Shown here: one piece after another, positions 16,677 to 32,499 of the stretch | Layout: each line of letters begins with the position of its first letter | Numbering within the stretch: position 1 is the first letter of the stretch | Assembly (NCBI RefSeq): GCF_012295575.1 | Contig: NZ_CP051180.1 | Location: 1,116,001 to 1,180,000 of the forward strand | Reading direction: 5' to 3' | Origin: Ferrimonas lipolytica | GTDB taxonomy: Bacteria > Pseudomonadota > Gammaproteobacteria > Enterobacterales > Shewanellaceae | Length of the DNA: 64,000 bases | Program-made: the position numbers and the translations under genes | Notes under the pieces: model-generated | The model's input: only the letters and a program-made list of their open reading frames with translations | Databases searched by the model: none | What the model was told of the DNA's origin: nothing

Positions 16677-16752
16677 GGGTCGTTAGCTCAGTTGGTAGAG
16701 CAGTTGGCTTTTAACCAATTGGTCGAAGGTTCGAATCCTTCACGACCCACCA
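16677..16752 (+). tRNA. tRNA-Lys(TTT), array copy 11
   Basis: Identical to copy 1. Its last 13 bases overlap the stop codon and last codons of the leftward flippase gene on the opposite strand. Confidence 0.98.
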
Positions 16753-18014
16753 TCTCTTCTTGTAATACCTCGTTTAATCCCCCTAAAAATCATTACGGTT
16801 ATCAAAACTGCCATGTTGCTGATAGCGACTGTCATCGCTAACGTCTGCGCAATGTCGGTATTTAGCATCATCAAAGCGGTTGCTAACACCAGCAAGCTGT
16901 AAAGCGATAACATCACTTCAGTACTTACCTGATCTTTTGCACGCATTATCGTGGCAGTGACGTCGATAAATAGAATTGGTATCGCGCTGAGGCAGAGGAT
17001 AGCCATCAATGAAGCAGCATCATGCCAACGTTGACCAAAGAGCAATTCGATATACAGGGGCGCAAGTAACGCTTGAACCATAAATATCACCGAGATCGCT
17101 GCGGCAATAAGGTAGGCCTTGTTGATGCTTGCAGGCAAAGCGTTGTGGCGCTGTTGTTGGGTCAAGTAGGGGTAGAGGCTGCTTAGGTAACTGTTGCTTA
17201 ACGACTGTGATAAGCCTACGCCGGCGCTTTTGGCAAAGCTGTATAGGCCGAATAGATCTGGGGATAGGATCTTTGCAGCAAAGAGGGTATCTATCTGTAA
17301 TCTTAGCGTTTTGGTTAACTCACTGGTGAGGATCTTACTGGAGTAGCCAAGCAGTTGGCGCATACAATTACGATTGAACGTAGCGGGGTAGTGGGCAACG
17401 CGTGCCCACGCAAAAAGAACAACCCACGCGAGTGCTGCAGCCACTTTAGCGTAGGCAACGGCCATTACGCCTAAGCCACAGATCACCAACAACGCCGTAC
17501 CTAGATTCTCAATAATGATTGTGATTGCCGTTGCCATAGCAAAGTAACGCATGTTGTTGTCTCGTTGGAGCAAGAACACCCGAATGGTTACCAATGGGTA
17601 GAGCAGATTGCACAGCGCCATCAGTTGCAGCGGTAGCACCAGCTGCGGGTTTTGATAGTAGTTGGCGGCCATCTCAGCGGTAAATAATTGCACTACGGTA
17701 AGGCTAATGCATACCGCCCACTGCAATGTGACAGCATTACCTGCAAATGCTGGCAGTTGTTGTGAGGTACATTGAATCACCTTGGCACCGGTGCCGATGC
17801 GGGTAAATACCCGCAGCAGATCATTGCAAACGATGGCGAGCATCGCCGTACCATATTGCACTGGAGTTAGGTAAGCCCCAAGACAAACAACGGTGACAAG
17901 GCGAGATAGTCGCGCTGCAACTTCAGCCAACAACATCCAAGATAGGTTACTAAATAGCCCCTTATGGCGAAATAGGGCAGCAAGTTGTTGCTGGGTCGCT
18001 TGTAGGGAGATCAT
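16740..18014 (-). CDS. Polysaccharide flippase (Wzx/MOP superfamily)
   Basis: An integral membrane protein of 424 residues with about 12 predicted hydrophobic segments. The N-terminal helix pattern (LSWMLLAEVAARLSRLVTVVCLGAYLTPVQYG) is typical of Wzx/PST flippases that move lipid-linked repeat units across the inner membrane. I start at the ATG at 18014 (MISLQATQQQ), which overlaps the preceding stop as ATGA. Third gene of the leftward glycosyltransferase operon. Its last residues (RRDGGS) are encoded by sequence that is also the 3' end of tRNA-Lys copy 11, so its C-terminus was set by the junction with the array and may be altered. Confidence 0.85.
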   Translation of the reverse strand: MISLQATQQQLAALFRHKGLFSNLSWMLLAEVAARLSRLVTVVCLGAYLTPVQYGTAMLAIVCNDLLRVFTRIGTGAKVIQCTSQQLPAFAGNAVTLQWAVCISLTVVQLFTAEMAANYYQNPQLVLPLQLMALCNLLYPLVTIRVFLLQRDNNMRYFAMATAITIIIENLGTALLVICGLGVMAVAYAKVAAALAWVVLFAWARVAHYPATFNRNCMRQLLGYSSKILTSELTKTLRLQIDTLFAAKILSPDLFGLYSFAKSAGVGLSQSLSNSYLSSLYPYLTQQQRHNALPASINKAYLIAAAISVIFMVQALLAPLYIELLFGQRWHDAASLMAILCLSAIPILFIDVTATIMRAKDQVSTEVMLSLYSLLVLATALMMLNTDIAQTLAMTVAISNMAVLITVMIFRGIKRGITRRDGGS

Positions 18015-18844
18015 TGCTGCTCCCACAAGCGTGATTTACTCGATGGCGCTGCTGAGTATGTGCTTTGATTGGTGGGACGACTAGGGTGGCTGAAACAGTC
18101 ATAGTGGCGCTCAACACGGGTTACCAGCTGGTCGATTTCAACTTGCAATGACTGCGGTTTAGTTCGAGCTAGCCGATGCGCTATTCGTGTCCAAACTTTA
18201 ACTAGAAAGCAGCCATAGTGGTATAGCCGAAAGCGGAGTCTATCGGTAAGGTTGGCGCGGTGAAGATGGTATAGCGGCCCACGACTGTAGTGACGAATGT
18301 AGTCGTCTAAATCAGCGCTAGTGTTGTTGTTCCAGCGTTTATCGATAAAACAGACGAACGGCTGTTGGTGGGCAAAATAGATAAGATGGCCGTTTTCTCC
18401 CCAGCCGACATCATCAGCCGGTGGCAAGGGCATGTGAGCATGGCGCAAGGCTTGTTGAAAGTAGTCGATAACACAACGGCTATTGTTGACAATAAGCACC
18501 CCTGAATTGAGACGTCCACTAAAGCCTTTAGCGACATAAAGGTACTTATCTGGGCGCTGTAGTTGGCAAAGATCAGGGGTATCAGCTCCGATATATGCAT
18601 CGGCATCAACATACATCACCCAGCGGTAGCCCCGTTGCAGCGCCTTTATCATCAGCGCGACTTTAAGCCACACCGCCTCTTTGCCTAAATGTGATAAGCG
18701 TGGCTGCTGGACGCATTGGTAATGGTAGCCGTGGCCATCAGCGTATTGCTGATGGCTGGCAAGATTACGCCGATACAGTTGCTGGTAACCATTCACTGCG
18801 ATGCTGAATACCAATACGTTATTGCTTGTTGCTGTCCCTGTCAT
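18011..18844 (-). CDS. Putative glycosyltransferase with DxD motif (GT8/GT34-like)
   Basis: A 277-residue protein. The ATG at 18844 (MTGTATSNN) is chosen because AGGAG lies seven bases upstream; a TTG at 18862 is the alternative. The segment RGYRWVMYVDADAYIG (about residues 80-95) carries the DxD-type metal/sugar-nucleotide motif, and GFSGRLNSGVLIVNN and DVGWGENGHLIYF fit GT-A enzymes of the galactosyltransferase GMA12/MNN10 or GT8 kind. I cannot choose between families or name the sugar. Second gene of the operon, four-base overlap with the flippase. Confidence 0.7.
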   Translation of the reverse strand: MTGTATSNNVLVFSIAVNGYQQLYRRNLASHQQYADGHGYHYQCVQQPRLSHLGKEAVWLKVALMIKALQRGYRWVMYVDADAYIGADTPDLCQLQRPDKYLYVAKGFSGRLNSGVLIVNNSRCVIDYFQQALRHAHMPLPPADDVGWGENGHLIYFAHQQPFVCFIDKRWNNNTSADLDDYIRHYSRGPLYHLHRANLTDRLRFRLYHYGCFLVKVWTRIAHRLARTKPQSLQVEIDQLVTRVERHYDCFSHPSRPTNQSTYSAAPSSKSRLWEQQ

Positions 18845-18866
18845 AGCTGCTCCTATTGGCAAATGA

Positions 18867-19871
18867 TTATGCGCGAGTGCCTATGGTGCCAATCGCCAAT
18901 TTTTGTAATGAGCTGTAGGATTTTTGCGGCAACAACGAACACAGAGTGGCTGCATATGTCACTAAAGTTCGCGCTGGCTCCTGGGTGAGAATGCGCACAT
19001 CGGTGAGTAATGCTCGATGCATCCAGCGCAGTGCTTCAACTGAGTTGCCTGATTGTGCGGCTCGGCGTGCCAGATAGCGCTGTTGATATGACTTAGCCAG
19101 TGAGAACCATTGACCAAAAAAGGCCGGGTGGTTGGCGCGGTTCTTCTGCATGCCGTCACACCAAAAGTTGTACTGCTTTACTAAGTTGGCTGATAAACCG
19201 GATGCGTTGACGCGGTAACAGGTTAGGGGTTCAGCAATGCCTTCAAACTGGGCATTCATGTCTAAGGCTGAGCGCAGCCAGAATTCAATATCTTCAGACT
19301 GACGCAAACTTTCATCAAAGTACTCAGTTCGAATTGGTGCAGAGCTGTAAGCTGGTTCTTGAAACCGTTGTAAAAAGGCGTGCCGTAACACCGCTGCGGA
19401 GCCATTACCAACTGGGTTACGGCAGATAATATGTTCAGCTTCGATGTTGCGTAGTCTCGGATTTTGGCCTATGCCCATCGGCTTACCCTTGCTATCGACA
19501 AACTCCGAAGCTGAGTAGCTGATGTCGATAAGTGGGTTTTGGGTTAGGTGACGAAAGTGTTTCGCCAGCTTGGTGGGAAGCCAAAAATCATCTGCATCCA
19601 ATAACGCCACAAATTCACCTCGACTGTGGTTTATGCCGGTGTTGCGGGCGGCCGAGAGTCCTGCATTCGGTTGGTGAATAATGTGGATGCGAGGGTCGCG
19701 GTACTGCTCTACTAACTCAATGGAGTTGTCGAGACTGCCGTCGTTAACGCAAATAACTTCGAAATCGGTAAATGTTTGTTTGAGTACCGAATCAAGACAC
19801 TGCTCAATATAAGCTGCGACATTGTAGATTGGAATTACTACCGAAAAGGCTGGGCGTGGTTCTGTTTTCAT
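18867..19871 (-). CDS. Family 2 glycosyltransferase
   Basis: GT-A fold transferase of 334 residues. The ATG at 19871 has GAGGT seven bases upstream; a GTG one codon earlier is possible. The N-terminus shows FSVVIPIYNVAAYIEQCLDS, CVNDGSLDNS and the DxD-containing FVALLDADDFWLP, with the acceptor-side EDIEFWLRSAL near residue 200. It would add a sugar to a lipid-linked EPS repeat at the inner membrane. First gene of the leftward operon, directly behind a strong sigma-54 promoter at 19910-19926. Confidence 0.9.
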   Translation of the reverse strand: MKTEPRPAFSVVIPIYNVAAYIEQCLDSVLKQTFTDFEVICVNDGSLDNSIELVEQYRDPRIHIIHQPNAGLSAARNTGINHSRGEFVALLDADDFWLPTKLAKHFRHLTQNPLIDISYSASEFVDSKGKPMGIGQNPRLRNIEAEHIICRNPVGNGSAAVLRHAFLQRFQEPAYSSAPIRTEYFDESLRQSEDIEFWLRSALDMNAQFEGIAEPLTCYRVNASGLSANLVKQYNFWCDGMQKNRANHPAFFGQWFSLAKSYQQRYLARRAAQSGNSVEALRWMHRALLTDVRILTQEPARTLVTYAATLCSLLPQKSYSSLQKLAIGTIGTRA

Positions 19872-19909
19872 CACATTTACCTCGAATTTCAGAAAGTCGA
19901 AGTAACTAA

Positions 19910-19926
19910 AGCAATCTAAGTGCCAA
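19910..19926 (-). promoter_or_regulatory. Sigma-54 promoter of the glycosyltransferase/flippase operon
   Basis: On the minus strand TTGGCACTTAGATTGCT, a near-perfect match to the -24/-12 consensus TGGCACN5TTGCT with GG-N10-GC spacing. Predicted transcription start is about 19900, giving a 5' leader of about 29 bases that includes the GAGGT ribosome site. Confidence 0.85.
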
Positions 19927-20000
19927 TATTTAAGTTGTTGATTTATAACTATTTAATTTTTATTTTTTGATTTTGTTAACCGAACTTTCTATTCTGCATT

Positions 20001-20056
20001 GCGATATGCGATATGCGATATGCGATATGCGATATGCGATATGCGATATGCGATAT
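20001..20056. repeat. Eight tandem copies of GCGATAT
   Basis: A perfect 56-bp array of a 7-bp unit, preceded by CTGCATT. It lies about 100-157 bases upstream of the predicted start of the sigma-54 operon at 19900, the normal place for an activator-binding site. The perfect short repeat is expected to change copy number by slippage. It is also six bases from MITE copy B. Confidence 0.95.
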
Positions 20057-20061
20057 AGAAA

Positions 20062-20389
20062 GGCTGTGTCACAGTTAGCTGTTGAAGTTTATCTTAAGCC
20101 TTCGGCTTCACCGGTTGCGGTGCTTTTAGGGGACGATGTTGCGGTGGCGACGGCATATTCTTGTATGCATTTTTGTATGCATTTTTGTGTGCATTCTTGT
20201 GTGCATTAGGGGGGGGAGCTTCGCCCCCCCTTTGGAATCCCCCTTGCCTTAGGTCGCAGTCCAAAACGCTTCGCTGAACTGCTCCGATGCGGCAGAAGAT
20301 CAACGACGGCAGTGCTTTACCCTTGTATCAACACTCGCCAAGTCGGTGCTTTAACAGTATTGGAAACAACACTTAGTTGGTACACAGCC
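20062..20389 (+). mobile_element. MITE copy B (328 bp, internally expanded)
   Basis: Full-length copy with both terminal repeats (GGCTGTGTCACAGTTAGC... and ...ACTTAGTTGGTACACAGCC). It is longer than the others because a 12-bp unit resembling TTGTATGCATTT is present four times (about 20158-20206) where the other copies have one. A perfect G/C-rich hairpin GGGGGGAGCTTCGCCCCCC follows. No clear target duplication. It separates the sigma-54 activator gene from the promoter region of the glycosyltransferase operon. Confidence 0.88.
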
Positions 20390-20434: not shown

Positions 20435-21892
20435 TTAGTTCTCCCACGCTTGCATCTTGCGATATAGAGTTGACGGGCTCACTTCCAGATAACCGGCAGC
20501 CTTAACCACCTTGTCATCACATATAGAAATCGCCTGCTGGATTGCGGCTTTTTCGACTTCCGCCAGAGGAACAATATGCTGTGGCAACATAGGCTCATTG
20601 CACGGTGGTGAAGCTTGGTGTTCAACGGTGCTGATAGCAGTGCGTGGCTTGCTATGTAACAGGGGTTCAGCTTCAGTATCACTGAGCGACAAGGCGTTAA
20701 TTAAATCGCTATTATCCAACAGCGATTCGGTCGCCATAACCACACAGCTATAGATACAGTTTTCCAATTGACGCACGTTACCGGGCCATGGGTATTGAGA
20801 TATCAACAGTTCGGCCTGCTGTGACAGCCCAACGACGTCTTTATTTTCAAGTTGCGCGTAATGGTGGACAAAGTGCTGTGCTAGCAGTACCGGATCAGCA
20901 TCGCGGTCGCTAAGAGCCGGTAGGTTTAGGCTGATTACGTTCAAACGGTAGTACAGATCCTCACGCAGCTTATTATCTTTAATAGCGACGAGCGGGTCGC
21001 GATTGGTCGCGCAGATAAAACGGATACTAACCGTTTCCATCGTGCTGCTACCCACCTTTTGAAAGGTGCCAGTTTGGATAAATCGCAACAACTTAGCTTG
21101 CAGGCCGATATCCATCTCTGAAAGTTCATCCAGAAACAGTGTGCCACCGTCTGCTAGTGTTGCCGCGCCATCGCGATGGCTTATCGCCCCAGAGAACGCA
21201 CCTTTGACATGACCAAAGATCTCCGATTCGATCAACTCATTAGGAATAGCGGCACAGTTAAGGGTTAAGAATGGTTTGCTGGCCCGTTGACTTAAATCGT
21301 GAATCGCTTTAGCTGCTAACTCCTTACCAGTACCACTCGCTCCGGTGATGAATACCGATGCCGAGCTCGGTGCTGCCCGCTCGATGGCACTATAGATGAA
21401 TTGCATCGGTACAGAGCGACCGATAAACCCCTGAAATTGCTCTTTGTTGGTTAATTGATATTGCGCGAGCGTTCGGCGTAACAGCGCGCGTTCAGCAATC
21501 AGTTGTTGGGTGTATATTGCTTGCTCAAGGGTTAGGATTAGCTGCTCATCGTCCCACGGTTTATTGATGTAGCTCCAGATCCGGCCCTCGTTTACCGCTG
21601 CCATCACCATATCGCTGTCACTGTGGCCAGACAACACGATACGGATAGACTCCGGGTAAAAATCTGCTACTGATGCCAGTAGCTCGGCGCCGTTCATCTC
21701 CGGCATTCGCATATCTGACACAATCACATCGATGTTGTTTTGCGCCATTAATTGCAGTGCTTCAGCACCGCTAGTAGCGAATAGACACTGGGCATCAAGT
21801 TTACGCACTAAACGTTTGAGCGAAGACAAAATCTCCCGTTCATCATCTACAAACAGTACTGTGGCGGTACTTATCTTATCGCCGTTATACAT
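20435..21892 (-). CDS. NtrC-family sigma-54 response regulator, output of the H-NOX system
   Basis: A 485-residue enhancer-binding response regulator. Start ATG at 21892 with AGGAG eight bases upstream. Domains: receiver (residues about 10-120; VLFVDDE, phospho-Asp in VIVSDMRMPEMNG, then KPWDDEQL), AAA+ sigma-54 activator domain (about 145-375; Walker A GASGTGKE, GHVKGAFSGA, Walker B GGTLFLDEL, sensor NRDP), and a Fis-type helix-turn-helix at the C-terminus (VKAAGYLEVSPSTLYRKM). The sigma-54 contact loop reads GAFSGA instead of GAFTGA, a conservative change. It is the last gene of the H-NOX/kinase operon, so it is the likely phospho-acceptor. It is also the only sigma-54 activator in the window, near three sigma-54 promoters. 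Confidence 0.92.
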   Translation of the reverse strand: MYNGDKISTATVLFVDDEREILSSLKRLVRKLDAQCLFATSGAEALQLMAQNNIDVIVSDMRMPEMNGAELLASVADFYPESIRIVLSGHSDSDMVMAAVNEGRIWSYINKPWDDEQLILTLEQAIYTQQLIAERALLRRTLAQYQLTNKEQFQGFIGRSVPMQFIYSAIERAAPSSASVFITGASGTGKELAAKAIHDLSQRASKPFLTLNCAAIPNELIESEIFGHVKGAFSGAISHRDGAATLADGGTLFLDELSEMDIGLQAKLLRFIQTGTFQKVGSSTMETVSIRFICATNRDPLVAIKDNKLREDLYYRLNVISLNLPALSDRDADPVLLAQHFVHHYAQLENKDVVGLSQQAELLISQYPWPGNVRQLENCIYSCVVMATESLLDNSDLINALSLSDTEAEPLLHSKPRTAISTVEHQASPPCNEPMLPQHIVPLAEVEKAAIQQAISICDDKVVKAAGYLEVSPSTLYRKMQAWEN

Positions 21893-21918
21893 AAGGCCCA
21901 CTCCTATGGGAAAACACG

Positions 21919-22884
21919 CTATTGATGCTGCAGTGGTCTGTCGAGTATGGGTAAACAGATAGTAAAGGTGGTGCCTTGATCCGTTTGCGTCGTTACATCG
22001 ATATTACCGCGGTGTTTCTTGATGATTGCATGGGCAATGGACAGCCCTAAGCCAGTGCCGCTATCGCTGTCTTTGGTGGTAAAAAATGGGTCAAAAATCT
22101 TACTGAGATGATGTTCGCTTATCCCACAACCGTTGTCGCTAACCCGCAGTTCAATGAGGTTATCGTTGCAGCTCGTGGTTACGGTGATGGTGCCAGTATC
22201 GTCAATTGCATGGGTGGCATTAACCAACAGGTTGAGAACTACCTGACTTATCTCTCCGGGATAACCAACGGTATCTGGAACCTCCGACAATGACACATCT
22301 AGTTTGGCCTTGTACTTAATCTCGTTCCAAACCAGCTTAATGGTGTTTTTGATGCAATCGTTGATATTGAACGGTTCACTTTGGTCACTGGGTGGGCGGG
22401 CGAATGACTTTAGCCCCTTAACGATGTCTTCAATTCGGGTAATGCCAGACAGCGACTCCGACATCAGATCGTCAAGATCCTCAAGCAAATGCGCCATATC
22501 CAACTCACTCCTCATTTGCTCGATGTGACTATTAAGGCCCGGCGGCAGTTGCTGCTCTGATAGCTGTGCAAAGGCTTGTTCATAACACTCGAGCATCAGT
22601 TTAAAGTTTGCGGTGTAACGTCCAAGCGAATTGAGATTACTTTTTACAAATGCGAGCGGGTTGTTGATTTCGTGTGCAACCCCAGCGGATAGCTGTCCTA
22701 TTGAGGCCAATTTTTCTTTATGGACCAACTGCGCCTTGTGAGCTTTGAGGTTGTTGTACGCTTCAACCAACGATTGATTTTTGTCGTACAGCTCTCGTGA
22801 CTTAGTCTCAAGGATATCTTCAGCCTTAGCTCGTGCTTTCTTTTGTCTTTCGTAGGCGGCTTTATAGTTTACGGCACTATTCAT
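21919..22884 (-). CDS. hnoK: H-NOX-associated histidine kinase
   Basis: A soluble 321-residue kinase without membrane helices. Residues about 1-55 are a coiled coil. The H-box is LSAGVAHEINNPLAFVKSNL (phospho-His about residue 71), and the ATPase domain shows the N box (NLLVNATHAID), G1 (VSDNGCGIS), F box (IFDPFFTT) and G2 (GTGLGLSIAHAI). The ATG at 22884 overlaps the H-NOX stop by eight bases, so the two are made together. In known Hno systems NO-bound H-NOX inhibits the autophosphorylation of such a kinase. The symbol rests on context rather than on sequence identity. Confidence 0.85.
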   Translation of the reverse strand: MNSAVNYKAAYERQKKARAKAEDILETKSRELYDKNQSLVEAYNNLKAHKAQLVHKEKLASIGQLSAGVAHEINNPLAFVKSNLNSLGRYTANFKLMLECYEQAFAQLSEQQLPPGLNSHIEQMRSELDMAHLLEDLDDLMSESLSGITRIEDIVKGLKSFARPPSDQSEPFNINDCIKNTIKLVWNEIKYKAKLDVSLSEVPDTVGYPGEISQVVLNLLVNATHAIDDTGTITVTTSCNDNLIELRVSDNGCGISEHHLSKIFDPFFTTKDSDSGTGLGLSIAHAIIKKHRGNIDVTTQTDQGTTFTICLPILDRPLQHQ

Positions 22885-23452
22885 TGGCAACGCCGTGGGG
22901 TGGTTGCGGGCTATTTATACGCAGTAATATCAGGCATTCGTCGGCGCCGTGGTGCATGCACTGTTGGTGCTCTATGGTGCAATCAACCTTGTAGTGTAAG
23001 GCGGCACCAGCGATCAATCCCTCTGCCAATACACACAGCTTGCGCGGTGAGTTGTAGAGCATAAGCAGTTCATCGTTGTTGTTGTTGCTGCACTGGATTT
23101 TAGGCAGGTGTGCGTTGGTGTAAAGCTTGTTTACCTCTTTATGGATGGTGCCATCGATGCTTTTAATGAAGCTAAAGAAAGTCTCTTCTTGGGCGGTAAA
23201 CTGAGGGTATTTATCATTGAGTGACTTGAATAACGAACGGCCGAAGGCCTCAACCAGGCTAGCGACTTCAATACCACTGATCTCCGACAACGCTTGCACC
23301 AGGTTAAACAGCTCTTCGTCGGGATAGCTTTCAACCGAGGTATAGACTCCGTCGGATTGCGGCTGCACCTTTTGTAATAATTGCTCCCACGTATCGATCC
23401 CCGCGGTGGACTCAATCATTTCATTAAACGCAATAAAAACAGCACCTTTCAT
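22877..23452 (-). CDS. hnoX: H-NOX heme nitric-oxide sensor
   Basis: A 191-residue HNOB-domain protein beginning MKGAVFIAFNEMIE (ATG at 23452; the open frame extends eight codons further). The heme ligand His is in GTIHKEVNKLY (residue 104) and the heme-propionate motif Y-x-S-x-R is YNSPR (Y133, S135, R137), both at the standard positions. It lacks an obvious distal-pocket tyrosine, as expected for NO-selective proteobacterial proteins, though that needs a structural alignment. First gene of a three-gene leftward operon: sensor, kinase, sigma-54 response regulator. Confidence 0.94.
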   Translation of the reverse strand: MKGAVFIAFNEMIESTAGIDTWEQLLQKVQPQSDGVYTSVESYPDEELFNLVQALSEISGIEVASLVEAFGRSLFKSLNDKYPQFTAQEETFFSFIKSIDGTIHKEVNKLYTNAHLPKIQCSNNNNDELLMLYNSPRKLCVLAEGLIAGAALHYKVDCTIEHQQCMHHGADECLILLRINSPQPPHGVANE

Positions 23453-23786
23453 GGTTAAACCTCTGATTACAAGCACACGTTTTTGAGCCTCGGCAACAAT
23501 GCTCGCTTCTGGGCCCAGCCTGCTTGAGTATGAGAATCGTGGCTATCATCGTTTGCCAGTAGCGGTTGATGAGTTGTTAAATCTCAAATAAAGCGATTGT
23601 TATTGGTCATTGTTAGGCCAGCGATTTGCATTTTGCAAGGGTTAGCTAAAATGGAAAACTGGTGTGAACAGCAGGCAATGGTGACGATGAACGTCGATCT
23701 AGTGCTATCTAATGTTGTTGCGACTAGCGCATTCAGTTGAACGCGGTAGATGAGGAAAGGGGCAGTGTAATCAACTTTTTATCTAA
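23453..23786. promoter_or_regulatory. Region upstream of hnoX with a TTGCA-TTT-TGCAA dyad
   Basis: No gene seen. TTGCATTTTGCAA at 23626-23638 is a perfect dyad and matches the two enhancer-like motifs upstream of the export operon (TTTGCACTGTGCGAA) at 11 of 15 positions. A weaker GG-N10-GC sigma-54 pattern (AGGCCA...TTGCA, 23615-23630, + strand) points rightward, away from hnoX. I find no sigma-54 promoter for hnoX itself, so this operon probably uses another sigma factor. Confidence 0.4.
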
Positions 23787-24462: not shown

Positions 24463-26085
24463 TTAATAGAAATGGCTATCTAAATCGCTAGTGGTGAACC
24501 AGTTGGTTGCTTCACTGCCTGACGATTCCACCCATACCTCGTAATCCGGGTAGGCCCAAATTACATCGATATATTCTTGTGGGTAGCGCCATTTTGTTGG
24601 GATCTTTAACGCCCATGGCAGGTTGTCGCTGTTGCGGAAATAGCGTGCGCTGGCTACGTCAGAGGTGTCATCTTTACGGCCAAGTTGGCTGTAATCGAAC
24701 AGATCCGTTGGTGGGTAGTCGGCGAAGTGGATCTCACGGCCGCGGTAATCACGACGGAACAGGAAGAAGTCGAAGCTTGAATGGGGCAGGGCGTCGATGG
24801 TTTCGCTTAAGCGCACGTCCAGACTAAAGGGAACTGGGTCGAACTGGGTACAGCTCTTAACCGTATTAAAGTGTTGGCATTTACCCGGCTCGTTGGTTTG
24901 AGTAAAACGATGGCTGTCATTCCATAGGGTAATTACCGCATCGGTTTGATCCGCTTCGGTAGTTTTATCGAATGACTCCCCATTCACCTCTAACGCCGCA
25001 CTGGCAATAGTGTCCGGCTCGATGCCCATCAATCGTAACGCAAAGCCGTTGTGAAAGTCGGCGCCACGGGCATCAATAAAGCCAGCCAGTTTAAACCCTG
25101 AGATGGCACCGTCAGCATTGTAGATGGTTTGTAGACGCTCTCGAATCACCAGATCATTCATATCGTAATCGCCGACGTTCGGCCAGTTGTCTTCGAACGC
25201 TAACGTTACCCAATCGGAGTCACTAGGGTAGTACGAGCTGAACGCCCGCTGGTAGTCGTTAGGGAACTGATCTTCGCTGTCGGCAATGCCATCGGCGTCG
25301 CTGTCATCAACGTCTGGCATAACCACGATATTACTGGTATCAATGGCGGTTTCAGGGGTGGTCTTTACCGAAAATACGGCATCGTTAAAATCGTTATCGC
25401 CCCAAGTACGAGGTAGATCCTCAAAACCAATAATTACCTCAGCCACCTCTTGATCGAACAGCAAGACATTGTGCTGTCTCAATTCGTCAGTGGGATCGGG
25501 ATTTAAGTGTTTGAGTGAGTAGTAATAGGGAACTGGGTTGGATTTAACGCCGGTGTAGTAGGAAAAGCCATTGGCGGCGATGAAAAAACCGATGCTGGTT
25601 CCCGCCGGAAATACCCCCAAACTCACACGGTGACCATTAGCTAGGTGCGGGAACGACAGATTGGGAAAGGCGATGATCTCATCAATCTCGTCAGCAGTTT
25701 GCGGTGGATTATTTTTATCGAAGGTAAAGTAACCGAACGCATTCTTATAGCCAGCTCCTTCGTGAATAAAGGTGATGAATACCTCTGCTTCTTCAGTCAA
25801 GGTAACGTTGGATCCGTCGTCCGTCGTCATAAAGGCTTCGTTCACCCGCGCCTCGGGTAGCGCGTTGTTGATCCTAGCGAAGAACTCCGGCGAGTAGTCG
25901 TTGTAGTGCCACGCTAGAGTGTCCGGTTTACCGGTATTTTGGTTATAGCCAATGGGCCAGTTCTCTCCGCTAAGAAATTCCCAAACGTATTGATTGTTAA
26001 CTTGGTTGGTCGCGCTTGTCGGCGCCGATAAGCCCATAGACATACAGGCAATTAAGCCCAAAGGTAACCCCAGCTTTTTATCCAT
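24463..26085 (-). CDS. Secreted DUF4114 + LruC-domain protein (likely matrix/adhesion protein)
   Basis: A 540-residue exported protein. Start ATG at 26085 (MDKKLGLPLG) with AGGAG upstream; signal peptide to about residue 25 (SAPTSA). Then an N-terminal domain ending in a DUF4114 segment (GFEDLPRTWGDNDFNDAVFSV), a calcium-binding thrombospondin-3-like stretch (DVDDSDADGIADSEDQFPND), and an LruC domain (AFSSYYPSDSDWVTLAFEDN, NVGDYDMNDLVI) running to the end. Such proteins are typical of marine bacteria and leptospires and are probably surface or matrix proteins; their function is mostly unknown. It has its own sigma-54 promoter and is divergent from the EPS export operon. Confidence 0.85.
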   Translation of the reverse strand: MDKKLGLPLGLIACMSMGLSAPTSATNQVNNQYVWEFLSGENWPIGYNQNTGKPDTLAWHYNDYSPEFFARINNALPEARVNEAFMTTDDGSNVTLTEEAEVFITFIHEGAGYKNAFGYFTFDKNNPPQTADEIDEIIAFPNLSFPHLANGHRVSLGVFPAGTSIGFFIAANGFSYYTGVKSNPVPYYYSLKHLNPDPTDELRQHNVLLFDQEVAEVIIGFEDLPRTWGDNDFNDAVFSVKTTPETAIDTSNIVVMPDVDDSDADGIADSEDQFPNDYQRAFSSYYPSDSDWVTLAFEDNWPNVGDYDMNDLVIRERLQTIYNADGAISGFKLAGFIDARGADFHNGFALRLMGIEPDTIASAALEVNGESFDKTTEADQTDAVITLWNDSHRFTQTNEPGKCQHFNTVKSCTQFDPVPFSLDVRLSETIDALPHSSFDFFLFRRDYRGREIHFADYPPTDLFDYSQLGRKDDTSDVASARYFRNSDNLPWALKIPTKWRYPQEYIDVIWAYPDYEVWVESSGSEATNWFTTSDLDSHFY

Positions 26086-26142: not shown

Positions 26143-26159
26143 TGCGAAAACGATGCCAA
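26143..26159 (-). promoter_or_regulatory. Sigma-54 promoter of the lruC-like operon
   Basis: Minus strand TTGGCATCGTTTTCGCA: GG-N10-GC spacing is exact, with one mismatch in the -12 element (TCGCA for TTGCA). Predicted start about 26132, 48 bases before the ATG. Confidence 0.7.
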
Positions 26160-26254: not shown

Positions 26255-26269
26255 TTTGCACTGTGCGAA
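26255..26269. promoter_or_regulatory. Enhancer-like dyad 1
   Basis: TTTGCACTGTGCGAA: GCAC-T-GTGC core with near-symmetric flanks. It lies about 265 bases upstream of the export-operon start and about 130 bases upstream of the lruC-like start, both usual for sigma-54 activator sites. An outer ATTTGCA...TGCAAAT repeat (26254-26282) surrounds it. Confidence 0.55.
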
Positions 26270-26341: not shown

Positions 26342-26354
26342 TTTGCACTGTGCG
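26342..26354. promoter_or_regulatory. Enhancer-like dyad 2
   Basis: TTTGCACTGTGCG, identical over 13 bases to dyad 1 and 87 bases from it. It lies about 178 bases upstream of the export-operon start and about 215 from the lruC-like start. Confidence 0.55.
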
Positions 26355-26498
26355 TACTCATATCGGCTAGCAAGCGTCCCTTGCCAATTTGCGAATAGTT
26401 CGAGTAATGGTTTTTGTTTTGCGAACATCAGCAAAGGCTCTCTCTCATCTGCCACATTAAATTTAGGTTAAGTGTTTGATTTTATTTAATTGATGTTA

Positions 26499-26515
26499 TT
26501 GGCATGACGGTTGCT
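26499..26515 (+). promoter_or_regulatory. Sigma-54 promoter of the EPS export operon
   Basis: TTGGCATGACGGTTGCT, an excellent -24/-12 match (TGGCAYG-N4-TTGCT) with exact GG-N10-GC spacing. Predicted start about 26526, 35 bases before the ATG at 26561. Confidence 0.85.
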
Positions 26516-26560: not shown

Positions 26561-27832
26561 ATGGATAAGACTAAACGTTTATGGGCAGTATTAGCGGCAG
26601 CGATGGTGACGATGGGCTGTACCCAGCATCACGGTCTGCAAGACTCAGCCGTCCCCCACGACAACTTCTATGGCAACGCCTACCAGCAAGTTGCTGGAAC
26701 CGGTGAGTTTATCCAGCACCAACAACCCGCTGACTCGTTGCGCTATGGCACCAAAGATTGCCGCGCCTACAGCAGTAATTTTGCTGCGGTTAATTACCGT
26801 GCCGATCAAATTATCAGTGATGGCGCTGAACATGTGCCTCTGTCACGACCAACCGATCCCCATTTCCATGGCACTGTGCCGCTTAGCCCCGGCGATCTAG
26901 TGTCGTTATCTATCGAAAATGGCGACGGCTTTAGTGGTAACTATGTCGTTAACACCAATGGTTTGCTGGTTGTGCCATACCTAGAGCCGATGATGGTATT
27001 TGGCCTACCAATTGAACTGGTGGCTGAGAAAATTGAGTTGGCTTTGGTACGAGCAGAGTTGTTCCGTCCAGCAACTGCACGGGTCGATCTGCGTTTATTA
27101 CAGTGGTCAGACATTGAGGTAACGGTTTCTGGGGCGGTGTTTGAACCAGGCCGAGTGCGGATTAATCGCAACATCCCTGAACAGGTGCTCGAGCAACGGA
27201 TTAACGCCTATGGCGATTACAGTGGCGATAGAATGTTGTCAGAAGCTCTGCGTGCAGCATCGGGGATCCGTCCAGACGCCAAACTCGACCAAGTTACCCT
27301 AATGCGCAGTGGTTGGCAGGTACAGCTTGATATGAGCGGGGTAATGACTGGTACCTCTTCCCGTGATATCGCCTTGGTCGCGGGGGACCGAATCGTTGTG
27401 CCAAGCACCGGTTGTTTTCAACCCCATCTGGTTCGACCGACCCAAATTACCCCTAAAGGGTTGCGAGTATTTATGTCCAACCTGATTGACTCAGCTGCAA
27501 ATAACTCCAGTGCCGCAGTAGGGCGTTTTAGCAGCAACATGCCTTACGGTAGTCGCTTATTGCAAGCGGCTGTATCAGCCAACTGCATCGGTGGCAAACA
27601 GTGGACCAACGCGCCACGTAAAGTACTCCTCGCCGGGCACAACCCGCTTACCGGACAGGTTCAGGTGATTGAACGCTCGGTCGAACAATTAATGCGCCAG
27701 CCTCACATTGCCGCGGTGAATCCCTACCTTATGCCCAATGACGCGGTGGCTTGCTATGACTCGGATCTAACCAACCTCCGTGACATTGCCCGCAGTTTGG
27801 TTGACGTTATTTCACCGTTCAAATTACTGTAG
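26561..27832 (+). CDS. Outer-membrane polysaccharide export protein (Wza/GumB family)
   Basis: A 423-residue lipoprotein. Start ATG at 26561 after GGGGGATAAG. Signal MDKTKRLWAVLAAAMVTMGC, then a Poly_export domain beginning PLSPGDLVSLSIENGDGFSG (about residue 110), SLBB-like segments (VTVSGAVFEPGRVRINRN; VTLMRSG...LVAGDRIVVPST) and a long C-terminal part with SNLIDSAANNSSAAVG and an amphipathic end (ARSLVDVISPFKLL), as in the barrel-forming end of Wza-like proteins. It would form the outer-membrane pore for the polymer. First gene of the rightward EPS operon. Confidence 0.88.
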   Translation: MDKTKRLWAVLAAAMVTMGCTQHHGLQDSAVPHDNFYGNAYQQVAGTGEFIQHQQPADSLRYGTKDCRAYSSNFAAVNYRADQIISDGAEHVPLSRPTDPHFHGTVPLSPGDLVSLSIENGDGFSGNYVVNTNGLLVVPYLEPMMVFGLPIELVAEKIELALVRAELFRPATARVDLRLLQWSDIEVTVSGAVFEPGRVRINRNIPEQVLEQRINAYGDYSGDRMLSEALRAASGIRPDAKLDQVTLMRSGWQVQLDMSGVMTGTSSRDIALVAGDRIVVPSTGCFQPHLVRPTQITPKGLRVFMSNLIDSAANNSSAAVGRFSSNMPYGSRLLQAAVSANCIGGKQWTNAPRKVLLAGHNPLTGQVQVIERSVEQLMRQPHIAAVNPYLMPNDAVACYDSDLTNLRDIARSLVDVISPFKLL

Positions 27833-27844
27833 GGATATACCGAT

Positions 27845-29242
27845 ATGTCGATGACCTATCCAATAGCAGTAAGAACCCGAGCAGACTCCCGCCGGGCGGC
27901 GCTGTACCAGTTTTGTCGCAGTCGTTATGTGCTGGTTGCTGGCTTAGGCTACGCCCTAGTGGTAATTCTGGTGACCATCTATCTGTTGCAAGCGCCACGT
28001 TTCCACAGTGACATGGCGTTAGTGCTACCTGGCTCAGGCTCCAGCAGCAATTTCAGCCTTGAGGATGTTGGTCAGGCCAGCGCCCAAACTAAGTCGCCCT
28101 TTAGTGGCGGTGGCTTCAACCCTAGGGTCAATTACAAAGAGATCTTAACCAGCCGCGACGTGATTCGACGAGCTGCAAATAACATCGGTTTAGATGAGAC
28201 TCAATTTGGAGACCCACGAGTCACCTTAACTGAACAAACATCGATTTTGGCCATTACCGTCGCTGGCTCATCAGCGCTTGGTGCGGAAGATAAAGCGTGG
28301 AGCTTATACCAATCGTTCCAGCAACAACTTGATAATCTCCGTAGTGACGAAGTGTTGCGCCACAGTCAGGGGGTTGAGCGAGTATTAACTGAGTATGAGG
28401 CCCAGCTGGCAGAGAAGCGCCGCGCTGTGGTTGAGTTTCAGCAACGTTCGTTATTGGTATCGTCGGCACAGATGGAGCAAACCATACGCACCTTAACCGA
28501 GCTTAAAGAGAAGCGGTTGTACGCGGAGTCGGAGCTCACTAGTCGTGAAAATTTCGTCCGTCAATTGAGTCTTGATTTAGGTGTATCGCCGGCGCTAGCA
28601 GGGCAAGCTTTTGCCCTTAATACCGACACTCAATTTCGTGGCTACATGCGTGAGCTAGATGACAGTTCGGCGCTTATCACTCGTTTCTCCTCACACTGGG
28701 GCGAAAACCACCCAAAGGTTAAAGCCGAGCAGCAGCGTTTAGCTTTTGCTCGCACCGCGCTCTTTCAACGCAGCGCCTCATTGATTGGCGAGCCAACTGC
28801 AGAGTTACTGCACACTATGGATTTGAGCGTTAGCCCTGGGCGAGCACAGCTGTTTGCCGATTTAGTTGATGCTTATGCGCGCGCACAAGGGGATCAAGCC
28901 AAAATTGAATCGATGGTGTTGGCGCAACAACAACTGCAGGACCGCTTAAAGGTGTATGCGCGGGAGTCCGCAGAGCTCGAACGTTTGCAACGACAAGCCC
29001 GACTGGCTGAAGCGGTTTATACCTCCGCTGCTGCCCGTCTGGAAGCGGGCCAGGCTAATATATTTGCCTCTTACCCGGTTGTGCAGATGCTTACTCCACC
29101 GGCAGTACCAACCAAACAACGTAGCCCCAACCCAGTTATCGCCATTGCGGCTGCGCTGTTTGGATTCATTTTGATAACCGTAGGAGTGCTGATCGCATGG
29201 CAACGCCACTACTTAATCAAACAACTGTTGAAGAGAAGCTGA
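27845..29242 (+). CDS. Polysaccharide co-polymerase / chain-length protein (GumC/Wzz type, no kinase domain)
   Basis: A 465-residue inner-membrane protein. First membrane helix at residues about 29-50 (YVLVAGLGYALVVILVTIYLLQ), large periplasmic coiled-coil part (residues 150-400, e.g. LTEYEAQLAEKRRAVVEFQQ), then the Pro-rich PPAVPTKQRSPNP motif before a second helix (VIAIAAALFGFILITVGVLI), which is the Wzz signature. There is no Walker-containing tyrosine kinase domain and none elsewhere in the window. It would control chain length and link to the Wza-like pore. Overlaps the next gene by 46 bases. Confidence 0.88.
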   Translation: MSMTYPIAVRTRADSRRAALYQFCRSRYVLVAGLGYALVVILVTIYLLQAPRFHSDMALVLPGSGSSSNFSLEDVGQASAQTKSPFSGGGFNPRVNYKEILTSRDVIRRAANNIGLDETQFGDPRVTLTEQTSILAITVAGSSALGAEDKAWSLYQSFQQQLDNLRSDEVLRHSQGVERVLTEYEAQLAEKRRAVVEFQQRSLLVSSAQMEQTIRTLTELKEKRLYAESELTSRENFVRQLSLDLGVSPALAGQAFALNTDTQFRGYMRELDDSSALITRFSSHWGENHPKVKAEQQRLAFARTALFQRSASLIGEPTAELLHTMDLSVSPGRAQLFADLVDAYARAQGDQAKIESMVLAQQQLQDRLKVYARESAELERLQRQARLAEAVYTSAAARLEAGQANIFASYPVVQMLTPPAVPTKQRSPNPVIAIAAALFGFILITVGVLIAWQRHYLIKQLLKRS

Positions 29243-30474
29243 TCTGGTATGGGCTGGTGCTCAGTTATCCGATGTATGTGCTTGGGGCGTTGTATGTCTG
29301 GGGCAGTGTTTTGGGTTGGTTGATGTTAGCGCTGGTGATATTGCGCTGCTGGGTCGATGGGCGCGCTGATTATGGCCCAGTTCCCCTAATCGTATGGTTA
29401 TGGGTTACCGCGATGGCGTTGATGCTAGTAGCGTTAATTGTGGCTCATATTGATTGGCAGTTGGGTTTAGCTAAAACCATCAAATCGACCATCGGTTGGG
29501 CCAAAGGCTGGGCATTGTTGGCGCTGTTTCTGTTGTTGGGGGCAGTGTTGCCATTTCGGTTAGCTCTGCTTACTCGCGGCACCTGCATCGTTGCAGCTCA
29601 GTCGATCATATTGGCGTTGATCTCGTTAGTTGCAGTGGCTTTGGGCTGGTCGGGAGAGATCTACCTGTCGCCGCTCAAAGCGATTGGTGGCCCCGGTTAT
29701 GAGTTTTTTACGGTGCGGTGGTTTGCGTTAAACCTAGAGACTGGGTTGCCGCGGTGGAGCTTCTTCGCACCATGGGCTCCTGCTGCCGGCTTGATGAGCT
29801 GCATCTGCTTGGTTATCTGTTGGCAAGAGCAGAACCCTCGCTGGCGGGCATTGGGTATTATCGGCACGGCGGTGATGTGTCTATTGTGTCAGTCGCGAGC
29901 CGGTTGGGTGTTGTTTGCTGGATTGATTCCGTTACTGGTGTTGTTTGGGCGCGCTATTAGCCCGTCGATGTTGTTGGTGGCTGCTATTGCCACAGTCGTA
30001 ATGATGCTATCGAGCCAGTGGCTGTTCGAGCATGGCAATGATGCTTATCAGCATATTAAAGATAGCCGACCAGACTCGACCCGGGTGCGAAGCGCTCTGG
30101 CCGATATTGCGCTGCAGCGGTGGCAAGCTGAAGCGCCGATTTGGGGCCATGGAATCGTTGAGCGTGGCCCTAAAATGGTTGAGTACATGCCCATTGGCAC
30201 TCATCACAGTTGGTATGGCTTGCTGTTTGTTAAAGGAGCAGTGGGTGCCTTAGCGTTAGCATTGCCGCTAGCCATTACGGTTATTTATCTGCTCGTTGAT
30301 GCGTTTCGCTCTGCTGTCTCGCGTACCGCGCTGTTGTTGGCACTGACTTTGGTTGGCTACAGCTTCTTTGAAAATCTAGAGATTTTGGTTTATCTGTTTT
30401 GGCCTGCGTTACTTTGGATAGGCGCAGCGCTGAACCCCCTTAAAACCAACGCATTGCAAAAGGTGGCGTACTAA
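29197..30474 (+). CDS. O-antigen ligase/polymerase-like membrane protein (Wzy/WaaL family)
   Basis: A 425-residue protein with about ten hydrophobic segments. A large periplasmic loop (about residues 280-340) carries the family signature HGIVERGPKMVEYMPIGTHHSWYGLLFVKGAVG: a GHGI start and an H-H-S-W/Y motif (THHSWYG), as in Wzy_C/O-antigen ligase domains. The start ATG at 29197 lies inside the previous gene but has AGGAG ten bases upstream. It probably polymerises lipid-linked repeat units. The flippase it needs is in the leftward operon at 16740, which ties the two operons into one pathway. Confidence 0.82.
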   Translation: MATPLLNQTTVEEKLIWYGLVLSYPMYVLGALYVWGSVLGWLMLALVILRCWVDGRADYGPVPLIVWLWVTAMALMLVALIVAHIDWQLGLAKTIKSTIGWAKGWALLALFLLLGAVLPFRLALLTRGTCIVAAQSIILALISLVAVALGWSGEIYLSPLKAIGGPGYEFFTVRWFALNLETGLPRWSFFAPWAPAAGLMSCICLVICWQEQNPRWRALGIIGTAVMCLLCQSRAGWVLFAGLIPLLVLFGRAISPSMLLVAAIATVVMMLSSQWLFEHGNDAYQHIKDSRPDSTRVRSALADIALQRWQAEAPIWGHGIVERGPKMVEYMPIGTHHSWYGLLFVKGAVGALALALPLAITVIYLLVDAFRSAVSRTALLLALTLVGYSFFENLEILVYLFWPALLWIGAALNPLKTNALQKVAY

Positions 30475-31583
30475 TGATGACTCGATTTGATACCTGCATC
30501 GCCGGTTACTACGGCATGAAAAACAGTGGTGACGATGCACTGCTTGCGGCCACCGCTTGGGGCGCGCAAACCTATCTGCATGCACGTCAATTAACGGTTA
30601 CCACTCAAGCGGATGTGCGAGTGAATCAGAAATTAACCTTTGCTGCTACCTTAGCAACGGCACAGCGCTTTCGTGCGCAGCACCGGTTGCAACGTTATGC
30701 CCAAGCGATACAAGCTCAACGGGTTATTTTTGGCGGCGGTTCGGTATTCCACAATGAGCAAGACATCAACGTTAAGCGCCATATGATGATGATCGCTGGC
30801 AACAACAACCACCTTGCATTGGGGGTTGGCTTAGGACCCTTTGCTAATGTTGCCGCTGAAAAAGCTTGTGCCAAATTCCTTAATAGTTGCTCGTTTGTCG
30901 GTCTGCGCGACCAGCAAAGCTATCAGATGGCAACCGCATTGGCTCCTGCGGCTAACGTCAAGCTAACCTTTGATCTGGCGCCACTGCTGCTGTGCAATGC
31001 CGATGCGTCTATTGCCATGCCTCAACGTCAGCATCGAGCTGGTATCGCAGTATGTTTATGCCCGAAAGAGCGGCTTAGTGGCAACCCGCAGGCTGAACAG
31101 CGTCGTATCGAGCGCTTGGCACAAGCTTTAACTGCGGTTCATAATCTCAGCGGCGAAACCATCTATCTGGTTAATCTCAACGGCCATCCATCTTTGGGTG
31201 ATCGTCAGGTACATTTGCAGCTACAGCAATGTTTAGGACCGCAGGTACCGGTACAAATGGTTGAATATAACGCCGATCCGCAGCAGGTATTACGATCGCT
31301 TGCGGCATTTAAGGTGGTTATCAGCATGCGCTTGCACGGCTCAATCTTGGCTTATTTAGCCGAGACCCCAGTGGTTTCACTGAACTATCACAGTAAATGC
31401 GAAGGTTGGTGTGACCAAGTTGGTATGGCGCCAGAGCTGCGCTTTAACGCGACTGACGTAGACCCAGCTCAGCTAACTAAGGTGATGCTGCAGGGGCTAG
31501 AGCACGGTTTTACTCAGAGCCAATTGTGTCGCGCCGAGGCAATCGCCGCTGCTAAACAAAATTGGAGCTGTAATTATGGTTAA
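30474..31583 (+). CDS. Polysaccharide pyruvyl transferase family protein
   Basis: A 369-residue enzyme of the CsaB/WcaK family. Visible features are the N-terminal GYYGMKNSGDDALL, the central VIFGGGSVFHNEQD, LGVGLGPF and VGLRDQQSY, and the C-terminal VVISMRLHGSILAYLAETPV with the conserved MRxHG. It would place pyruvate ketals on sugars of the EPS from phosphoenolpyruvate, adding negative charge. The start overlaps the previous stop (TAATG). Confidence 0.88.
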   Translation: MMTRFDTCIAGYYGMKNSGDDALLAATAWGAQTYLHARQLTVTTQADVRVNQKLTFAATLATAQRFRAQHRLQRYAQAIQAQRVIFGGGSVFHNEQDINVKRHMMMIAGNNNHLALGVGLGPFANVAAEKACAKFLNSCSFVGLRDQQSYQMATALAPAANVKLTFDLAPLLLCNADASIAMPQRQHRAGIAVCLCPKERLSGNPQAEQRRIERLAQALTAVHNLSGETIYLVNLNGHPSLGDRQVHLQLQQCLGPQVPVQMVEYNADPQQVLRSLAAFKVVISMRLHGSILAYLAETPVVSLNYHSKCEGWCDQVGMAPELRFNATDVDPAQLTKVMLQGLEHGFTQSQLCRAEAIAAAKQNWSCNYG

Positions 31584-32499
31584 TCAACCGACTTTACCGC
31601 CGACCATTGCGGTGGTTATCCCACTCTTTAACAAGGCGCTGCACATTGCAGACACCTTAGCTTCAGTGTTTAACCAAACTCTCCAGCCAACTGAAATTAT
31701 TGTTGTTGATGACGGTTCTACTGATGACGGCGCTGATATCGTCCGCCAGTATCAACGCGTGACCTTGGTGCAGCAACAAAATGCCGGCGTGTCAGCCGCG
31801 CGTAATACGGGTGTTGCTGCGGCCAGCAGTGATCTTATCGCCTTTATCGATGCCGATGACCGTTGGTTACCACAATTTTTGCAAGAGATAGTCATCTTAA
31901 CGAAAGGTTTCCCGCAAGCGGGGGTATTTACCACTGGTTATCAATTCTGCATCAATAAACAGGAATATCGCCTGCCTAAGATCCGTTTCGGTGGGCGAGG
32001 AGGGCAGCAGTCACGACTACTTGACGATTACTTTGATATCGGCGCCCGTGGTGATCTTCCATTTACGATGTCGTCCATCGCTGTTCGGGCGGATGTTATG
32101 GCTCAACTAGGAGGTTTTCCACTGAACGAACCTATGGGGGAAGATCAAGAGCTGTTTTGTCGAGCGGCACTGTTTAGCAGTATCGCTTATAACCCTAAGG
32201 TACTGGCGAATTATCATTTAGATGCTTCTAACAGAGCTTGTCTGCAGCATATCCCCGCCAAGGAGTGTCCGTTTAGTGTTCGCCTACATCAGCTAACACA
32301 AACGCTTGAGTCTGAATCGTTGTGCAGTAGCATCGACAATTATCGCGCCGCTCATATTCTTCATCTGGCTTCGCTGCATGTTCGCAATAAGCAGGTGACG
32401 ATAGCTAAAGACCTGTTACAGCAAAAGGTTGTCGATAGACTGTGGTTAAGAAAATGGTGGTGGTGGCTACGCTGTCAGCTGGTTGCGGTTCAGCATTAG
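31576..32499 (+). CDS. Family 2 glycosyltransferase
   Basis: GT-A transferase of 307 residues, last gene of the rightward EPS operon, overlapping the pyruvyl transferase by eight bases. The domain begins IAVVIPLFNKALHIADTLAS, then VVDDGSTDDG, AGVSAARNTG and FIDADDRWLP with the DxD. Acceptor-side GEDQELFCRAAL is near residue 190. It is of the same broad family as the gene at 18867 but clearly not a recent duplicate. Confidence 0.9.
   Translation: MVNQPTLPPTIAVVIPLFNKALHIADTLASVFNQTLQPTEIIVVDDGSTDDGADIVRQYQRVTLVQQQNAGVSAARNTGVAAASSDLIAFIDADDRWLPQFLQEIVILTKGFPQAGVFTTGYQFCINKQEYRLPKIRFGGRGGQQSRLLDDYFDIGARGDLPFTMSSIAVRADVMAQLGGFPLNEPMGEDQELFCRAALFSSIAYNPKVLANYHLDASNRACLQHIPAKECPFSVRLHQLTQTLESESLCSSIDNYRAAHILHLASLHVRNKQVTIAKDLLQQKVVDRLWLRKWWWWLRCQLVAVQH

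Follow-up and report, generated by a model that had tools for sequence, protein, structure and literature searches.

A candidate nitric oxide-responsive sigma-54 module within an exopolysaccharide locus of Ferrimonas lipolytica

In the genome of Ferrimonas lipolytica, a single contig of 4.13 Mb, an operon for an H-NOX sensor, a histidine kinase and a sigma-54 activator lies amid flanking exopolysaccharide (EPS) operons. It was described earlier in a sequence-only reading of the 64,000 nucleotides at positions 1,116,001–1,180,000, here called the window, and this arrangement was confirmed; the gene calls place the three genes where that reading had put them. We regard it as probable that the locus is a self-contained EPS module responding to nitric oxide (NO) by direct phosphotransfer, with NO shutting the genes off. 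Without NO, the H-NOX-associated kinase would autophosphorylate and, without an intervening Hpt relay, hand its phosphate directly to the receiver of the LuxO-like activator. Once phosphorylated, this activator would bind TTGCA-N3-TGCAA sites about 75–245 bases upstream of three -24/-12 promoters and drive sigma-54 transcription of a flippase/glycosyltransferase operon, an LruC/lipoprotein operon and an export/polymerase/pyruvyltransferase operon. NO-bound H-NOX would inhibit the kinase, and the EPS and LruC genes would be switched off. Gene content, promoter and activator sites, conservation, H-NOX linkage and receiver kinship were computed and form the basis of this proposal. The earlier interpretation is thereby partly supported.

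In response to NO, some bacteria form biofilm whereas others disperse from it, and this is usually explained through cyclic di-GMP (c-di-GMP). If the proposal is true, the locus would represent a second, shorter NO-to-matrix design with predictable sign. Such a design could be tested in marine strains that grow in culture, and it would help to explain the opposite effects of the same sensor. The leading of a gas signal to biofilm via one activator appears to be an unusually short route. In addition, a candidate regulator with its binding sites is provided for a wide range of marine EPS clusters and their LruC proteins, for which no regulator was found in the literature searched.

Sensor, kinase and activator

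22877..23452, minus strand: H-NOX haem NO sensor (hnoX-like); ATG 23452; PF07700, 145 bits
21919..22884, minus strand: simple histidine kinase (hk), 323 aa; HATPase_c; HisKA 26.7 bits against a cut-off of 26.9
20435..21901, minus strand: sigma-54 response regulator (ntrC; receiver, AAA+, Fis-type helix-turn-helix); alternative ATG 21892; GAFSGA loop

The three genes form one tight operon. There is an 8-base overlap between the H-NOX stop and the kinase ATG at 22884, and a gap of 17 bases separates the kinase gene from the activator gene. Hallmarks of H-NOX proteins are the haem-binding His and the YxSxR motif. The aligned His and the YxSxR stretch are both kept in the alignment to 4u9b, 4u99 and 2kii, and among solved structures the NO-binding sensor 4u9b/2kii is the closest relative (E 1e-38). 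In the kinase, Pfam detected neither a receiver nor an Hpt domain. The activator fits the group I sigma-54 type with receiver, AAA+ domain, helix-turn-helix and a phosphorylatable Asp. D20 and D63 are invariant across 15 aligned rows; the loop reads GAFSGA in the window and in 11 cluster relatives, and GAFTGA in three distant rows. Residues 15–147 match NF053512, a receiver family kindred to NosR. The whole genome holds one H-NOX and one match to the sigma-54 DNA-binding domain, together with 16 matches to the sigma-54 activator domain (12 strong, at least 197 bits; four weak, at most 30 bits).

Flanking operons and their predicted sigma-54 promoters

18867..19871, minus strand: gt2a, family 2 glycosyltransferase; PF00535
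18011..18862, minus strand: gtA34, weak glycosyltransferase-34 match; PF05637, 20.6 bits, under cut-off; recurs in relatives
16740..18026, minus strand: Wzx-type flippase; PF13440 and PF01943, above cut-off
24463..26085, minus strand: LruC-domain protein (DUF4114 + DUF4842); PF13448, PF16130; TIGR04456, 254 bits
23851..24420, minus strand: small protein encoded together with LruC, its start resembling that of a lipoprotein; without Pfam family; recurs beside LruC
26561..27832, plus strand: Wza-type export protein; PF02563, 27.5 bits (cut-off 28); SLBB, 23 bits (cut-off 27)
27845..29242, plus strand: Wzc-like chain-length protein, by position between wza and wzy and by relatives; no Pfam match, no kinase domain
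29197..30474, plus strand: Wzy-like polymerase, by position and conservation; no Pfam match
30474..31583, plus strand: pyrT, polysaccharide pyruvyltransferase; PF04230
31576..32499, plus strand: gt2b, family 2 glycosyltransferase; PF00535
19910..19926, minus strand: -24/-12 element of the gt2a-gtA34-wzx operon; 16.1 bits; exact match genome-wide
26143..26159, minus strand: -24/-12 element of the lruC-lipoprotein operon; 13.3 bits; imperfect -12 (TTCGCA)
26499..26515, plus strand: -24/-12 element of the wza operon; 15.9 bits; exact match genome-wide

The genes resemble an EPS set of the Wzx/Wzy type, in which Wzx lies above the Pfam cut-off and Wza just below, and Wzy and Wzc are placed by position and conservation. 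A biofilm polysaccharide is the presumed product, and LruC is a putative matrix protein. The lruC operon ends in a stable hairpin with a T-run downstream of the lipoprotein gene (z -4.6).

The three predicted promoters with exact GG-N10-GC spacing and short leaders with ribosome sites, which the sequence-only reading had reported, were found again, the -12 element of lruC being weaker. They end about 40–60 bases before the start codons of gt2a (ATG 19871), lruC (ATG 26085) and wza (ATG 26561). With a matrix written from consensus weights, the three elements take ranks 1, 2 and 3 among the 153 window sites of at least 6 bits, followed by one of 12.3 bits, and all point towards an operon start. 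The genome scan proposed earlier gave 17 perfect matches versus five for the reversed pattern.

Relatives were collected by a Wzy profile search, and the best 80 of 559 loci were named (L numbers). For these, sites of at least 12 bits were counted upstream of each gene, with the reversed matrix as control. The sites precede wza at 31 of 71 loci (control 0/71), wzx at 7/59 (0), lruC at 6/26 (0), gt2a at 6/64 (1), gtA34 at 2/31 (0), hnox at 2/10 (0) and pyrT at 4/36 (0). Before ntrC, hk and wzc they occur at 1/38 (0), 0/27 (0) and 0/78 (1) loci, respectively. Mean scores before lruC and gtA34 were 9.9 versus 4.7 and 3.8.

LuxO-type activator sites

23626..23638, no strand: perfect site TTGCATTTTGCAA upstream of hnoX; 18.4 bits, best in the window
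19999..20056, no strand: site TTGCGATATGCGA upstream of gt2a; 15.6 bits; overlapping weaker sites, TGCGATA array of 8.1 copies
26256..26268, no strand: site TTGCACTGTGCGA between lruC and wza; 15.7 bits, second in the window
26343..26355, no strand: second, weaker site TTGCACTGTGCGT; 9.8 bits

The LuxO box is TTGCA-N3-TGCAA, given in print as TTGCAWWWTGCAA (PMC10162802). LuxO-type TTGCAWWWTGCAA upstream sites are present at the locus and in the relatives. At the locus, the TTGCGATATGCGA array begins 74 bases upstream of the gt2a -24 element, and TTGCACTGTGCGA stands 98 bases from the -24 element of lruC and 232 from that of wza.

In the relatives, sites with at most one mismatch were sought 50–300 bases before the start at 45 loci, two stretches of which (L109 and L156) are from one genome. 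They were detected before wza at 27/41, wzx at 20/28, gtA34 at 18/30 and lruC at 15/25 loci. Other genes carry them more rarely: wzy 7/43, ntrC 4/32, gt2a 3/45, gt2b 3/45, wzc 2/43, pyrT 2/36, hk 0/19 and hnox 0/8. Fifty-nine permuted palindromes, used as control, gave means of 0.05–0.41 hits per gene and a highest single value of 7.

A matrix was built from 70 distinct sites, none of them taken from the source genome. Its three best hits in the window, at 23626, 26256 and 19999, fall in the three intergenic regions of the locus; the fourth (13.8 bits) lies within coding sequence. Three window hits reach at least 15.5 bits, versus a mean of 0.47 and a maximum of 3 in 60 random sequences. The genome contains five exact sites versus one for the control, and TTGCATTTTGCAA is one of the five. 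Only one of the four others (L286) has a sigma-54 site of at least 11 bits within 1.5 kb; it is 0.9 kb away and inside a gene. When the 17 perfect sigma-54 sites of the genome were examined, a strong activator site within 300 bases upstream was present for two, both at this locus (16.0 and 15.7 bits), and the other 15 reach at most 5.3 bits. The LuxO-type sites shared across the operons thus support one regulon. Together with the ranking and conservation of the promoters, they favor the earlier view of a single sigma-54 regulon of three operons under the neighboring activator.

Two features of the sites may be added. Within 23541–23638 of the window, the sole TGGCA downstream of TTGCATTTTGCAA has 12, not 10, bases to the next GC. 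The TGCGATA array (20000–20056) is a 7-base microsatellite forming a row of overlapping activator-like sites before the gt2a promoter; changes of its copy number could tune expression of the gt2a operon.

H-NOX linkage and receiver kinship

The search for H-NOX covered 42 of the 80 named-locus genomes (those of the first 40 loci and of L210 and L211), plus G074 and G190. H-NOX was present in 33 of these 44 cluster genomes, counting matches with in-frame stops, compared with 48 of 295 genomes sampled evenly across the order. L210, L211 and G074 had been picked as known H-NOX carriers; without them the figure is 30/41. The Fisher value of 9e-15 overstates the enrichment, because the cluster genomes are related and the two samples differ in taxonomy. 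In 17 of the 42 named genomes H-NOX lies on the wzy contig, 3.7–12.6 kb from wzy, and in 15 on another contig. With G074, where the distance is 4.3 kb, 18 genomes have both within 13 kb. The same-contig assignment was made by equal size, for L183 by a match inside the locus and for L193 by contig number.

The order hnox-kinase-activator recurs in Ketobacter (L262) and in metagenome-assembled genomes (MAGs) of Pseudomonadales (L263) and Oleiphilus (L245). A Kangiellaceae MAG (L215) has it as well, its activator being less closely related. The receiver of the activator is 36–50% identical to those of 12 HD-GYP regulators beside such kinases, whereas seven further receivers encoded in the source genome share 23–33% with it. 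Eleven of the 12 are from H-NOX genomes and one (L173) is from a genome without H-NOX; six were assigned to HD-GYP by tblastn only. With an H-NOX-linked HD-GYP regulator as query, the best match in the genome was the receiver of the activator (44%, 1e-28). The simplest reading of these similarities is that kinase and receiver stayed paired while the output domain differs. Operon, receiver kinship and recurrent gene order likewise argue for the earlier proposal that the H-NOX kinase feeds the activator.

Clusters lacking H-NOX or with extra sensors contain other genes of this kind: L164 has a periplasmic-binding-protein gene beside a 598-aa kinase, and L168 a CHASE5 kinase. Hence, the sensor of the cluster appears to be exchangeable. 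In a Glaciecola MAG (L183), the cluster is bounded by H-NOX on one side and by a FIST (NosP-like) gene with a kinase on the opposite side, so that two kinds of NO-sensor candidates are found at one EPS cluster.

Alternative explanations

Several observations weigh against the proposed module. In the window, the sigma-54 pattern with at most one mismatch occurs seven times versus 7.7 expected, thus without excess, and three sites reach at least 13.2 bits versus 3.8 in 30 first-order random sequences. In the relatives, sites also precede wzy (13/80, control 1) and gt2b (13/72, control 2), and they are few before lruC and gtA34. The distance of 232–244 bases from the wza -24 element to the strong activator site exceeds that of most relatives. 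For TTGCATTTTGCAA before hnoX, no -24/-12 partner with N10 spacing and at least 11 bits was detected within 1.5 kb. Therefore, autoregulation of hnoX, if any, does not follow the usual sigma-54 arrangement. No H-NOX was found in 10 of the 42 named cluster genomes, hence NO is not a universal input. An HD-GYP regulator usually adjoins the H-NOX kinase in the relatives; a receiver/HD-GYP regulator stands beside H-NOX at 17 of 30 short H-NOX loci (Pfam-checked for L109 and L202). In the source genome, the next match to the H-NOX-linked HD-GYP query after the activator is a receiver/HD-GYP protein elsewhere (29%, 5e-19).

These HD-GYP proteins bear on the first alternative, in which the regulon and its activator are real and the main input to the activator comes from another kinase. 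The chief targets of the H-NOX kinase would then be c-di-GMP regulators, as in Shewanella oneidensis, and its presence in the operon would be incidental. The other kinases, of periplasmic-binding-protein or CHASE5 types, in clusters without H-NOX also fit this explanation. We consider it unlikely, as no HD-GYP gene was found at the locus, the receiver of the activator is by far the genome's closest to those of H-NOX-linked regulators, and the H-NOX-kinase-activator operon is overlapping and recurrent.

A second alternative keeps the same wiring with reverse sign: NO or oxidation of H-NOX would stimulate the kinase and turn the EPS genes on. The sign of H-NOX action varies by species, and NO is reported to raise biofilm in S. 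oneidensis (PMC6335343). As the NO-bound H-NOX proteins of V. fischeri and V. parahaemolyticus inhibit their kinases, and as the biofilm increase in S. oneidensis comes about via loss of a downstream phosphodiesterase, the reverse sign is judged improbable, somewhat more so than the first alternative. The third alternative, that the sigma-54 sites arose by chance and ordinary promoters serve the operons, agrees with the site number in the window and is nevertheless very improbable in view of placement, conservation across genomes, the independently derived activator sites and a number of sigma-70-like sites in the region no higher than in shuffles (17 versus 20.6). The number of sigma-54 matches was discarded as evidence, since counts equal to chance are meaningless alone; the evidence is their placement.

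Comparison with known systems

In Vibrio fischeri, HahK is under negative control by HnoX, which is also required for the inhibition of biofilm by NO; HahK acts via SypF and LuxU on SypG and the syp polysaccharide genes (PMC12369376). SypG is a sigma-54 activator (PMC10162802). NO-bound H-NOX inhibits its kinase in V. parahaemolyticus (PMC8738867). By analogy with both species, NO should lower EPS transcription at the locus described here. In the sequence-only reading, NO was thought to turn the EPS genes on, and a sigma-54 output to EPS was presented as a different design of NO control. Neither view found support: inhibition of the kinase, as reported for these systems, leads one to expect lowering, and HnoX-HahK-SypF-SypG of V. 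fischeri, which already has such an output, is a close precedent.

The module of the window shares with the V. fischeri system the H-NOX-kinase operon, a sigma-54 activator of LuxO/SypG type, a polysaccharide target and LuxO-type sites. In contrast, HahK is a hybrid kinase requiring an Hpt protein, whereas the kinase here is simple. In V. fischeri, syp lies apart from hnoX-hahK; here the genes for kinase and activator form a common operon amid their targets. The activator of the window also belongs to another clade than SypG. The Syp system comprises a hybrid Hpt kinase and a receiver/phosphatase-STAS partner switch besides the activator. Both the hybrid Hpt kinase and the switch are absent among the genes of the locus and present in a Shewanella relative.

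For LuxO, domain order and DNA motif agree, and the activator is 44–46% identical to a Vibrio LuxO. However, it scores 466 bits with the NCBIfam LuxO model, below the cut-off of 800, and stands in a separate clade. Judged from its genes, the arrangement would work like HnoX-HahK-SypG of V. fischeri and is a member of neither LuxO nor Syp. Regulators of TIGR02915 (PEP-CTERM) are sigma-54 response regulators of EPS loci. The activator resembles them in this respect and also remains below their cut-off (342 versus 503 bits).

The Hno system of S. oneidensis (HnoK, HnoB, HnoC, HnoD) likewise has H-NOX and a kinase, and receivers kin to H-NOX-linked HD-GYP regulators are common to both. Its described outputs are a phosphodiesterase, the degenerate HD-GYP protein HnoD and HnoC, the repressor of hno genes (PMC6335343, PMC8738867). 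Unlike these, the output here is a sigma-54 activator beside EPS operons. Thus, a kinase in the hnoX operon was found, but not a c-di-GMP-type regulator at the locus; no EAL or HD-GYP regulator was detected among the locus genes with Pfam, and no genome search for EAL proteins was made. NosP-NosK-NosR of Burkholderia pseudomallei is similar in having a haem NO sensor, a kinase and a response regulator of a kindred receiver family. It differs by its NosP sensor and the HD-GYP output of NosR (PMC12570481). No account of an operon that joins H-NOX and a simple kinase to a sigma-54 activator amid EPS targets was found in the literature searched, which included few subscription papers; papers joining H-NOX with sigma-54 terms were mainly on Vibrio.

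Related clusters and origin of the locus

The search of related genomes suggested earlier showed that the gene set recurs. Many of the first 40 loci carry much of it, in Colwellia, Pseudoalteromonas, Glaciecola and Paraglaciecola as well as in Ketobacter, Oleiphilus, Cellvibrionaceae and others. Recurrent are wzx, gt2a, gtA34, wza-wzc-wzy and the small lipoprotein gene, often also pyrT and gt2b. The cluster activators that are full-length within the flanks are 52–62% identical to that of the window. Where LruC is full-length, it is mostly 58–68% identical, and a few loci have more remote LruC proteins (34–38%). The aligned LruC proteins with 59–67% identity to that of the window are from L166, L168, L172, L175, L188, L190, L191, L193 and L201. 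This identity is above that of most sugar enzymes, therefore a specific role with the polymer is suggested. A predicted fold of LruC (pLDDT 56, pTM 0.40) was set aside, and its best match, 3oqq (TM 0.25), was not used.

In a tree of 35 rows with midpoint root, the activator falls into a clade of 17 rows (99/95) with the cluster activators. LuxO and SypG-like proteins lie outside this clade, as do the activators encoded at Shewanella EPS loci. L182 and L187 were left out of the alignments; L182 is included in the tree and L274 is absent from it. In another family of the order, three genomes have wza-wzc-wzy-pyrT-gt2b followed directly by kinase and H-NOX, and four genomes of the genus holding these loci contain activator relatives with 57–64% identity. 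In 13 congeners of the source genome, the activator relatives reach at most 43%. Because of the close activators in the other family, the distance of the congeners and the clade placement, the locus was probably acquired by transfer. Homologues with 40–46% identity in 60 relatives were rejected as orthologues of the activator, since neighbors and tree place most of those included in LuxO or SypG-like groups.

A wider account of this receiver family may be proposed, which we consider evenly balanced between true and false. The family would have swapped outputs, so that the H-NOX kinase in the EPS clusters of marine Gammaproteobacteria serves both an HD-GYP regulator and a LuxO-like sigma-54 activator. 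A single NO sensor would thereby set c-di-GMP jointly with the transcription of polysaccharide genes. The source organism would have dropped the HD-GYP arm and kept a one-step, c-di-GMP-free route with NO reducing biofilm. The cluster itself would be a travelling cassette with exchangeable sensors (H-NOX, FIST/NosP-like and periplasmic-binding-protein kinases).

In Shewanella, a related EPS locus (L113) contains a hybrid Hpt kinase with a syp-like receiver/phosphatase, ATPase and STAS proteins (Pfam), and at five Shewanella loci sigma-54 sites precede the STAS-wza genes. In Croceicoccus (Alphaproteobacteria; L221, L233), hnox adjoins a sigma-54 activator (39–40%) beside wza-wzc-wzy. At L134, L147 and L148, from another family of the order, members of another activator clade (37–39%) occur near H-NOX, beside receiver proteins.

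Chain initiation and flanking genes

A WecG-type glycosyltransferase and an initiating sugar transferase, which stand beside gtA34 in the relatives, were not found at the locus (16740–32499). Therefore, the gene for chain initiation must lie elsewhere. By base composition the locus shows no trace of transfer, with 0.494 inside versus 0.493 and 0.494 outside. Eleven tandem tRNA-Lys genes (15317–16752) lie on one flank of the EPS locus. A twelfth (32661–32736), on the opposite flank, is identical to the array copy with which it was compared. This bracketing by tRNA-Lys genes looks like an integration hot spot.

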